DNA from: Sphingobium sp. CR2-8
Lineage (GTDB): Bacteria; Pseudomonadota; Alphaproteobacteria; Sphingomonadales; Sphingomonadaceae
DNA: 64,000 nucleotides
Direction of reading: 5' to 3'
Assembly: GCF_035818615.1 (NCBI RefSeq)
Contig: NZ_JAYKZY010000002.1
Coordinates: 870,501-934,500 of the forward strand
Shown here: positions 8,832 through 52,680 of the stretch, one piece after another
Numbering within the stretch: the first letter of the stretch is position 1
Layout of the letters: each line of letters opens with the position of its first letter
The notes under the pieces: generated by a model
Databases searched by the model: none
Seen by the model: only the letters and a program-made list of their open reading frames with translations
Told to the model about the DNA's origin: nothing
Made by a program: the position numbers and the translations under genes

Positions 8832-8903
8832 GCTGTTCCCCGGCGAAGGCCGGGGTCCAGTCCCATCCAAGCAACTGGACCCCGGCCTTCGCCGGGGAGC
8901 AGC
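8832..8903. repeat. Palindromic repeat, family B copy 1 (intergenic)
   Basis: A 30-bp inverted repeat with one mismatch (8832-8861 with 8874-8903) around a 12-nt loop. The arm core reads CCCCGGCGAAGGCCGGGG followed by TCCAGT. It fills the gap between the convergent epsC and alkaline phosphatase genes and may serve as a terminator for both. Related copies lie at 32270-32343 and inside murD at 52005-52080. Confidence 0.85.
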
Positions 8904-21982: not shown

Positions 21983-22018
21983 AAAAGGGGCGTTCCGACC
22001 GATCGGAACGCCCCTTTT
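21983..22018. terminator. Strong bidirectional terminator between convergent genes
   Basis: A 16-bp perfect stem (21983-21998 with 22003-22018) around a 4-nt loop. The stem is A-rich on the left and T-rich on the right, so it works in both directions. It separates the SGNH hydrolase (plus) from carD (minus). Confidence 0.9.
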
Positions 22019-32269: not shown

Positions 32270-32343
32270 CCTTGTTCCCCGGCGCAGGCCGGGTCCAGTC
32301 CCGCCATGTAGAACTGGACCCCGGCCTGCGCCGGGGAACAAGG
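32270..32343. repeat. Palindromic repeat, family B copy 2 (upstream of argS)
   Basis: An inverted repeat of about 30 bp per arm with the same core as the copy at 8832 (CCCCGGCGCAGGCC followed by GGGTCCAGT). The left arm lacks one G. It lies between the lipoprotein gene and argS, 44 bp before the argS start. Confidence 0.85.
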
Positions 32344-48742: not shown

Positions 48743-48765
48743 TTATACACCCGACCACATCCCTT

Positions 48766-48819
48766 CGGTTCGAGCTTGTCGAGAACCATCACTCAGCGGT
48801 TCTCGACAAGCTCGAACCG
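48766..48819. repeat. Palindromic repeat, family A copy 2 (murE-murF gap)
   Basis: A perfect 22-bp inverted repeat (48766-48787 with 48798-48819) around a 10-nt loop, built on CGGTTCGAGCTTGTCGAGAA. It ends three bases before the murF Shine-Dalgarno sequence (GGAGG at 48823-48827). No T-run follows. Confidence 0.9.
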
Positions 48820-48836
48820 ATCGGAGGTTGGTGTTG

Positions 48837-50228: not shown

Positions 50229-51301
50229 TGCTCTACTGGCTGGCCGAAACCCTGGATTTCGCAGGTATATTCAACCTCATCCGCTACCTGTCCTTTCGCG
50301 CGGGCGCGGCGATCTTCACGTCGCTCATCATCGGTCTGGTGATCGGTCCCAAATTCATTGGCTGGCTGCGCGTCCGTCAGGGCAAGGGGCAACCGATCCG
50401 CGACGACGGCCCGCAAAGCCACCTCGCCAAACGCGGCACGCCCACCATGGGCGGCCTGATGATCCTGACGTCGATGGTCGTTTCAGTGCTGCTGTGGATG
50501 GACCTGTCGTCCACCTATGTCTGGGCCTGCCTGTTCGTCACCCTGGGTTTCGGCGCGATCGGCTTCCTGGACGATTATGACAAGGTGACGAAGGCCAGCC
50601 ACAAGGGGCTGTCGGGCAAGATGCGCCTGGCGTTCGAATTTCTGATCGCCGGGGTCGCCGCCTGGATGATCGTGCATCAACATGGCAATACCGCGCTGTA
50701 CGTGCCCTTCTACAACGGCCCGGCGATCGAGCTGGGGCCGTTCTATTTCTGCTTCGCCGCCTTCGTCATCGTGGCGTTCGGCAATGCGGTGAACCTGACG
50801 GACGGCCTCGACGGCCTCGCCACCATGCCGGTCATCATCGCCAGCCTGGCCTTCATGCTGATCGTCTATCTGGTCGGCCGCGCGGACTTCGCCGAATATC
50901 TGGGCATCCCGCATGTGCCCGGCGCGGGCAATCTGACGATCCTGTGCGGCGCGATCATCGGCGCGGGCCTGGCCTTCCTGTGGTTCAACGCGCCGCCCGC
51001 CGCCGTTTTCATGGGCGACACCGGCAGCCTTGCGCTGGGCGGCACGATCGGCGTCATCGCCGTCACCGCCCATCATGAAATCGTGCTGGGCATCATCGGC
51101 GGCCTGTTCGTCGTGGAGGCGCTCAGCGTCATCATCCAGGTCTTCTTCTACAAGCGCACCGGCAAGCGCGTGTTCAAGATGGCCCCCATCCATCATCATT
51201 TCGAACAACTGGGCTGGGCCGAGCCGACCGTCGTGATCCGTTTCTGGATCATCGCCTTCGTACTGGCGCTCGCCGGTCTTGCGACGTTGAAGCTGCGATG
51301 A
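50228..51301 (+). CDS. mraY: Phospho-MurNAc-pentapeptide transferase MraY
   Basis: A 357-residue membrane protein with about ten helices. Family motifs: [11 protein letters not shown], the Asp pair in [22 protein letters not shown], and [10 protein letters not shown], ending [13 protein letters not shown]. It makes lipid I. Overlaps murD by ATGA. Confidence 0.97.
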
Positions 51302-52680
51302 TCGTCAGCAGCGCCTTTGCGGGGAAAACCTACGCCGTGCTGGGGCTGGCGCGGTCTGGCCTCGCCACGGTCGAGACGCTGGTCGCCAGCGGCGCGCGCG
51401 TCGTCGCCTGGGATAGCCGGGAGGAAGCCCGCGCGCTGGTCGAGGGACGGGCGGAAATCGGCGACCCGATGGAGATCGACCTGACCGGCTTCGACGGCAT
51501 CGTGGTGTCGCCGGGCGTGCCATTGAACCGCCACCCCATCGCCATGCGCGCGAAGATCGCGGGCGTGCCGATCATCGGCGACATCGAACTGTTCGCGCTC
51601 GCCCGCCCGACGCTGCCGCCGCACAAGGTGGTCGGCATCACCGGCACCAACGGCAAGTCGACCACCACCGCGCTCATCCACCACATCATCGAACAGGCGG
51701 GCTATCCCACTGTCATGGGCGGCAATATCGGCCTGCCGATCCTCAGCCAGCCGCCGCTGGAACCCAATCTGCACGGCGTGGGCGTCTATGTGCTGGAACT
51801 GTCCAGCTACCAGATCGACCTGACGCATAGCCTGGATTGCGACGTCGCGGTGCTGCTCAACATCACGCCCGATCATCTGGATCGCTATGATGGCTTCGAA
51901 GGCTATGTCGCGTCGAAGGCACGGCTGTTTGCGATGCAGTCGGCGGACCATATCGCTGTCATCGCGACCGATGACGAGCCGAGCAAAGCGATCGCTACCA
52001 ACCTGTTCTCCGGCGCAGGCCGGAGTCCAGTGTTGAACGCGGTGTCATCCGGCCCTGGACTCCGGCCTGCGCCGGCGAACGGTTTGGGGCAGGTGACGTC
52101 CTCCGACATCGACCCCGCCGCCCAACTGACCTGGCCCGCCCTGCAAGGCCCGCACAACGCGCAAAACGCCGCTGTCGCCATCGCTGTCGCAAAAGCACTG
52201 GGCATCGACGAATCTACCATCGCCAACGCGCTCACCAGCTACGCCTCGCTCCCCCACCGGATGCAGGCCGTCGCGACCCGCAAAGGCGTCCTCTACGTCA
52301 ACGACAGCAAGGCGACCAACGCCGCCTCGACCGCCCCGGCGCTCGCCGCCTGGCCGCCGGTCGACGGACGCCCCCGCATCCACTGGATCTTGGGCGGCGT
52401 CGCCAAGTCGGACAATCTGGACGAGTGCGCGCCCCATTTCGGCAACGTCGCCCATGCCTACACCATCGGCGAAGCGGGGCATATGTTCGCCGATCTGCTG
52501 CGCACCCATATGGCCGTGGACGATAGCGAGATGCTAAGCGCCGCCGTCCGCCGCGCCGCGCGCATCGCGCAGCCGGGGGACGTGGTGCTGTTGTCGCCCG
52601 CCTGCGCCAGTTTCGACCAGTTTCGCGATTTCGAAGCGCGCGGCGATGCCTTTGCCGCGGCCGTTGCGGCGCTGGAATAA
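51298..52680 (+). CDS. murD: UDP-MurNAc-L-Ala:D-Glu ligase MurD with a repeat-derived insert
   Basis: A 460-residue ligase. The ATP loop [14 protein letters not shown] (about 118) and [27 protein letters not shown] and [11 protein letters not shown] are clear, as is the C-terminal [15 protein letters not shown]. Residues 236-261 (beginning [10 protein letters not shown], ending LRPAPAN) are encoded entirely by a 76-bp family B palindrome and look unlike MurD sequence. The frame is kept, and the essential motifs lie outside the insert, so the enzyme is probably functional. Confidence 0.94.
52005..52080. repeat. Palindromic repeat, family B copy 3, translated inside murD
   Basis: Arms of 26 bp (52005-52030 and 52055-52080) with one mismatch share the GGCGCAGGCC and GTCCAG core of the copies at 8832 and 32270. 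It lies in the murD reading frame and encodes residues 236-261. Confidence 0.85.

Follow-up and report, generated by a model that had tools for sequence, protein, structure and literature searches.

Repetitive extragenic palindromes (REPs) with the tag CGTC have been described for alphaproteobacteria, including an S. chlorophenolicum (its genus being given there in abbreviated form), and in the sections of that description cited here some copies are intragenic and no transposase accompanies them (Di Nocera et al. 2013, PMC3733652). As defined in the same sections, the tag is CGTC, with TGTC and CCTC as variants, and it belongs to a stem of 8-9 bp in which A-T is "almost invariably" the first and the second pair. 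RPE-4 and RPE-6, two of the Rickettsia palindromic elements (RPEs), are assigned there to the CGTC super-family, and two Xanthomonas species are mentioned which carry different REPs at approximately the same site of recB (PMC3733652). The occurrence of RPEs inside proteins has been summarised (Delihas 2007, PMC2229807; 2024 review, PMC10969869), nearly half of the RPEs being located in open reading frames (ORFs) according to the portion of the 2024 review cited here, and a passage in a paper on Nematomorpha (PMC6649704) cites that Rickettsia elements lose their repeat identity over time. Here, we analyse a stretch of 64,000 nucleotides from Sphingobium sp. CR2-8 (contig NZ_JAYKZY010000002.1, positions 870,501 to 934,500), referred to as the window, in which a palindrome of 76 bp (52005..52080, plus strand) lies within murD (51298..52680, plus strand), the gene for UDP-N-acetylmuramoylalanine--D-glutamate ligase (460 aa). 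We consider it likely, with a probability of about 0.84, that this palindrome is a REP-like dimer which inserted in frame into murD, has been tolerated as a flexible loop and decays with time.

The left arm of the palindrome (52005..52030, plus strand) holds a mini-hairpin, CTCCGGC-GCAG-GCCGGAG, followed by the tail TCCAG. After a spacer of 24 nt (52031..52054), the right arm (52055..52080, minus strand) represents an inverted copy. An earlier note on this DNA, made from the sequence alone, had described arms of 26 bp with one mismatch, and the left arm indeed differs from the reverse complement of the right arm at one of the 26 positions, while pairing extends further, to arms of 33 nt with 3 mismatches (51998..52087). 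The top inverted-repeat score in murD is 24, with a maximum of 18 across 100 synonymous-codon shuffles. The RNA fold of the palindrome has -69.3 kcal/mol (z -8.3), and none of 200 shuffles was equally stable.

The ORF coordinates place the palindrome at MurD residues 236-261, as had been claimed before; the reading frame continues through the insert without a stop codon, and the product is MurD in sequence and in fold along its whole length. In an AlphaFold2 model built with 42 sequences (mean predicted local distance difference test score, pLDDT, 88.3), the insert is flanked by a helix (227-239) and a strand (262-266), and only two stretches of the protein have a pLDDT below 50, one within the insert (250-257) and one at 437-442. 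Residues 236-261 thus map to a low-confidence loop between helix and strand. From this model the insert would be a floppy loop that leaves the active site of MurD untouched. The earlier note had attributed the survival of the insert to an intact frame and a tolerated loop: the first part is borne out by the ORF, while for the second part tolerance is suggested by the AlphaFold2 confidence profile and by the great variation of loop length among relatives.

The palindrome belongs to a family that is dispersed over the genome. The half-site CCGGCGNAGGCCGG has 136 exact matches in the 4.51-Mb genome, while the same pattern read backwards, used as a control, has none. The half-sites represent 91 elements, 43 with two half-sites, one with three and 47 with one; as this census is based on exact half-sites, any partner of the 47 single half-sites lies outside it. 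In 42 of the 91 elements, both half-sites are exact and form an inverted pair. The usual unit, derived from these 42 pairs, has 66 bp, ends with GTTCC and GGAAC and has the form GTTCCCCGGCGNAGGCCGGGGTCCAGT, about 10 nt, ACTGGACCCCGGCCTNCGCCGGGGAAC. The half-sites are spaced by 28 nt in 31 of the 42 pairs, compared to 38 nt in the MurD copy. The family stem has 7 bp with C-G as first pair (CCCCGGC/GCCGGGG; CTCCGGC/GCCGGAG in the MurD copy), its loop is GNAG, most of the 42 pairs have TCCAG or CCCAG as tail, and GTT is found at the outer end. Two copies in the window, at 8832..8903 (72 bp including flanking pairing) and at 32270..32343, had already been recognized as intergenic relatives of the MurD palindrome; both are genuine and share the arm core, and the further copies that were then expected in the genome amount to about 90 elements.

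The positions of the elements relative to genes were taken from an ad hoc gene prediction for which the window served as training set. By this procedure 79 of the 91 elements are intergenic, 43 between convergent and 34 between tandem genes, none between divergent genes and two without an assigned orientation, while five partially overlap a gene and seven were called intragenic. Upon inspection of the latter, no paired element other than the MurD copy lies deep within a gene. Four of the calls (C2:963286, 1180527, 2206451, 2346646) are in possible N-terminal over-extensions of genes, one (C2:902779) is the copy at window position 32270, placed in an ORF counted from an upstream TTG, and one (C2:1972247) is a lone hairpin without tail, which is probably a chance match. 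The two intergenic copies had suggested a flank complementarity specific for each target, but this idea found no support among the 42 paired elements, in which pairing beyond the fifth position amounts to 17-48%; the higher values probably come from copies with shared flanks. In 11 of the 42 pairs, as judged by eye, the 66-bp element is nested in a longer conserved unit with about 30 bp of shared flank on each side (e.g. C2:2129138, C2:1603761, C1:591715), and both flank test words are present in 7 of the 42. The longer unit is perhaps a larger composite element that is mobile.

The MurD loop was surveyed in relatives, using 80 named loci and 50 loci from 50 of the 94 genus genomes (including that of the window); the other 44 genus genomes are represented by match coordinates only, outside the 50-locus set. 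The resulting 130 murD sequences (the duplicate of the window's own having been dropped) reduce to 103 distinct ones. When classed by eye, 76 have no recognisable repeat, part of them with longer, unrelated loops, while 21 carry an in-frame palindrome and six carry remnants. The palindromes are of type A (5 cases), B (10), B-prime (5) and C (1), and they represent at least three unlike families, with GTTC/GTGC, CGTCATTCC/CGTCATCCC and GTTCGGGCTGAGC types. In the 81 sequences for which the loop stretch was compared, the median is 29 residues, compared to 52 in the window: in the MurD alignment, relatives without the palindrome also lack the 26 residues, just as expected if, as proposed at the outset, a repeat had inserted into an essential gene. 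The best inverted-repeat scores in these loops are 7-26 for 12 full-length inserts (L048 being the lowest; relatives are cited by locus number), 6-12 for four remnants, 5-9 for 14 other long loops and 4-9 for 51 short ones. Arms are perfectly paired over 26 nt in L058 and over 27 nt in L112, while 8 of 26 positions are mismatched in L048. All inserted alleles keep an open frame, as is expected for an essential gene. In remnants such as L073, L127 and L041, the outer ends of the palindrome have been kept and the middle is gone, again in frame, as if internal deletions that preserve the frame had shortened the palindromes.

The inserts of types A, B and B-prime have a common starting point, after I-x-x-x-[LIV], and their left hairpin is read in one and the same frame. 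They mostly end just before V; the window has L instead, and L145-L147 have one extra G. Two readings are suggested by the codon position and frame which A and B share: inserts may be tolerated at no other point, or one palindrome may have replaced another. The MurD loop has been host to at least three families, namely A, B/B-prime and C. Half-sites of A1, A2, B and B-prime were counted in each genome with one mismatch allowed, yielding 147 A1, 2 A2 and neither B nor B-prime for the window genome, the MurD copy of which is A1-like (2+2 arm differences to A1, 4+5 to A2). B-prime half-sites are rare, with at most 4 per genome in all genomes counted, and for the type C half-site the counts are 15 in the L104 genome and 100 in the window genome. 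Copies of type B elsewhere in the genomes of four relatives (20 read, 18 measurable) have 87-89 nt between the tags in 16 cases and 109 nt in two, and the MurD copies of this type have 89 nt (7 measurable). Three relatives, L049, L051 and L103, have in-frame repeats in a second MurD loop, which belongs to the N-terminal domain and lies near residue 48. These repeats represent a fourth family and contain TCTCGACTNCGCTCGA or the complement as half-site, which is found 54, 68 and 34 times in the three genomes, respectively. In L049, both loops carry inserts derived from repeats.

The loci of the 103 sequences, up to about 7.5 kb each, were scanned for palindromes with a score of at least 13, a threshold which some repeat-bearing alleles do not reach. 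Within murD, 18 palindromes were detected, 16 of them in this loop, one in the N-domain of L051 and one in L138, which is probably due to chance. A further 17 are located outside murD (8 in the class "other ORF", 9 intergenic or at an edge), all at distances of 2.3-2.5 kb on the upstream or 2.4-2.5 kb on the downstream side. These sites presumably correspond to the murE-murF and murG-murC junctions, gene ends having been checked only upstream in the window. At the upstream position the window has a palindrome of another family, TCGGTTCGAGCTTGTCGAGAACC, with perfect arms of 23 bp (48765-48820), between ORFs that were read as murE and murF; in relatives, palindromes of other families are found at about the same distance upstream and also at the downstream junction. 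A perfect 16-bp inverted repeat at window position 21983-22018, with A-run and T-run ends and directly after the end of an ORF, looks like a bidirectional terminator. In L106, the murD sequence is interrupted by a series of N, after which the frame is shifted; this is most probably an error of the assembly.

We propose that a non-autonomous dispersed palindrome, an inverted pair of REP-like hairpins, entered murD between the helix and the strand. The reading frame would have been kept without a stop and the added residues would form a flexible loop, so that the enzyme would remain functional and the insert would drift. The insert would thus be neutral or nearly so, and the loop would take in and shed palindromes over time, with other families at the same point in relatives. 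This proposal is based on the multi-copy nature of the repeat, on the open frame, on the relatives without insert, and on the observation that the classed inserts and remnants are all in frame. The repeat would have been moved by a transposase-like activity. A system driven by a REP-associated tyrosine transposase (RAYT) was considered and rejected: in a search for Y1 transposases with a positive E. coli control, the sole Y1_Tnp match in the window genome (C2:3348664-3349026, L141) reads as IS200-like and is a remnant interrupted by one stop, and 71 of the 94 genus genomes have no match, including the repeat-rich G029 and G078.

For the history of the inserts, we used a tree based on mraY, ftsW and murD, the loop of the latter being left out, and remnants were scored as no insert. 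The state changes between insert and no insert at least 15 times, which is not equivalent to 15 insertions, because losses and allele exchange count as well. The proportions of nonsynonymous (pN) and synonymous (pS) differences were compared in nine pairs. In L115/L116 and L031/L054 the compared insert codons do not differ (only 7 codons in the latter pair). In all seven informative pairs, the values of which are based on 26-34 insert codons, the insert has a higher pN than the remainder of murD, 1.2-1.8 fold in five of them and 2.5-5.7 fold in L058/L112 and in the pair of the window with L112. The ratio dN/dS of nonsynonymous to synonymous substitution rates is 0.32-0.60 in the insert versus 0.11-0.21 in the rest for five pairs and 0.18 versus 0.10 for L049/L119, and is undefined for L145/L146.

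Several observations weigh against the insertion of a REP-like dimer followed by drift. In six of the seven informative pairs (inserts of L037, L049, L119, L145-L147, L065, L067, L058 and L112), with the pair of the window and L112 as exception, the insert has a lower pS than the remainder of murD (e.g. 0.095 versus 0.271 in L037/L049). Such low values inflate dN/dS of the insert and are unlike what plain drift predicts; they could result from pairing constraint, copy conversion or recent acquisition. As 76 bp cannot be divided into whole codons, some flanking bases must have been lost or changed. The arms of the genomic copies pair with 0-3 mismatches (18 of 20 measurable), but these copies were chosen by near-exact patterns and are thus biased towards good pairing. 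Finally, none of the half-sites listed for the family comes closer than 50 kb to the Y1_Tnp remnant, the sole match in a search that was restricted to Y1 among the transposase families.

It is also possible, though we lean towards other explanations, that one or few entries occurred and that later families overwrote the resident palindrome by recombination or by template switching between hairpins, the slot then tending to follow the repeats available in each genome. The common start and hairpin frame of A, B and B-prime would fit, and so would the window arm, which is A1-like with A2-like bases at some positions. The window and L112 are neighbours in the tree (Shimodaira-Hasegawa-like approximate likelihood ratio test, SH-aLRT, 86, not starred), yet their inserts differ with a pS of 0.47 and a pN of 0.24, compared to 0.30 and 0.04 outside, and also exceed the divergence of L058/L112 (pS 0.24, pN 0.16). 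However, the spacers of A and B have no homology by eye, type C in L104, which is from another clade, requires a separate insertion, and in some genomes the type found in MurD is not the most abundant one counted: L054 (equivalent to G029) has type B in MurD but 167 A1 versus 22 B half-sites in the genome.

An exchange of murD alleles, by which each family inserted once somewhere and the segments recombined between species, seems rather unlikely to us as the general explanation. It would account for the 15 or more state changes, and the residues adjacent to the insert track the insert type, with mostly DDVxEV beside B and B-prime. Quite unrelated loops are found in L053, L079, L155, L044, L046 and L050; in these and in L133 the loop is replaced by unlike sequence without a palindrome, hinting at allele exchange. 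On the other hand, the window and L112 differ within the insert, and the local abundance of the family fits the window copy. Selection for a stable mRNA hairpin, tuning translation or mRNA decay in the division and cell-wall cluster, is improbable. The stability of the RNA fold, the near-intact pairing in the window, the perfect pairing in L058 and L112 and the reduced pS of the insert, which pairing constraint (or copy conversion) would produce, all speak for it, but 76 of the 103 murD sequences have no such insert, several copies such as that of L048 have lost much of their pairing while keeping the frame, and the intergenic distribution is that of ordinary REPs. A chance palindrome in ordinary MurD codons can be dismissed, because the repeat is multi-copy, is absent from relatives and has a score that none of the 100 synonymous shuffles reaches.

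With the insertion of a REP-like dimer as the preferred explanation, we tentatively suggest a further step, namely that the MurD loop might be a standing slot, mainly in one genus, in which palindromes of different families arrive, replace one another in place and shrink by in-frame deletion, thereby repeatedly rewriting 20-30 residues of this essential enzyme. A dense series is available for a single loop, from no insert via well-paired palindromes of several families to decayed remnants, and several of its members are named culture-collection strains, among them S. chlorophenolicum NBRC 16172 (L067), which has an insert, so that entry, turnover and the making of usable protein sequence become testable. 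MurD is a drug target. The residues of the insert are repeat-derived and not ancestral, which matters for MurD alignments. Selfish palindromes in proteins are best known from Rickettsia, and the sphingomonads represent a second group.

A literature search in a limited full-text collection found no report of MurD inserts in Sphingobium. The literal half-sites matched, among others, a paper on transcripts of meningococci, in which the related repeat of Neisseria may be contained. Inverted hairpin pairs, extragenic location and high copy number are shared with GTAG REPs, the bacterial interspersed mosaic elements (BIMEs) and their RAYTs, but the end consensus of the window family has no GTAG, and no intact Y1 or RAYT is present in the window genome. 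The CGTC REPs, as far as the cited sections describe them, are closer: they are mostly alphaproteobacterial inverted dimers, mainly between convergent or tandem genes and sometimes intragenic, and the window family is alike. It shares with them a loop of 4-5 nt and a CCA tail (GNAG; TCCAG or CCCAG), the predominance of inverted dimers 3' of genes (42 of 91 elements are inverted pairs, and none of the 79 intergenic ones is between divergent genes) and, in the search restricted to Y1, the lack of an associated transposase apart from the one remnant. The CGTC tag is replaced by GTT at the outer end, and the stem has 7 bp starting with C-G instead of 8-9 bp starting with A-T. Without the tag, the family is not filed as a CGTC REP despite the shared layout, being set apart by that written description. 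The type B inserts of relatives, in contrast, fit CGTC family-1 as described there, with CGTC tag, 8-bp stem, 4-nt loop and CCA tail (PMC3733652), and such CGTC-type elements sit in the same MurD loop in many relatives.

The likeness to Rickettsia palindromic elements, which the earlier note had drawn, is apt, given the placement of RPE-4 and RPE-6 in the CGTC super-family (PMC3733652) and the CGTC-type elements in this loop; that several families occupy it across relatives goes beyond that note. As in the RPEs outlined in the sources cited, a selfish palindromic repeat is found in frame in a conserved enzyme and decays. The differences are the sphingomonad host, the sequence, and the proportion within genes, with one of 91 elements of the window genome deep in a gene as a pair versus nearly half of the RPEs in ORFs, as given in the cited portion of the review (PMC10969869). 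An insert of this type in a protein is of a known kind, but it is unusual that different families have occupied one and the same loop repeatedly. A comparable case is recB of Xanthomonas, in which, according to the sections cited, related species carry different REPs at approximately one position of the gene (PMC3733652). Two species are concerned there, while in MurD several families and their remnants occupy one loop in 27 of 103 sequences, with a second loop in addition.
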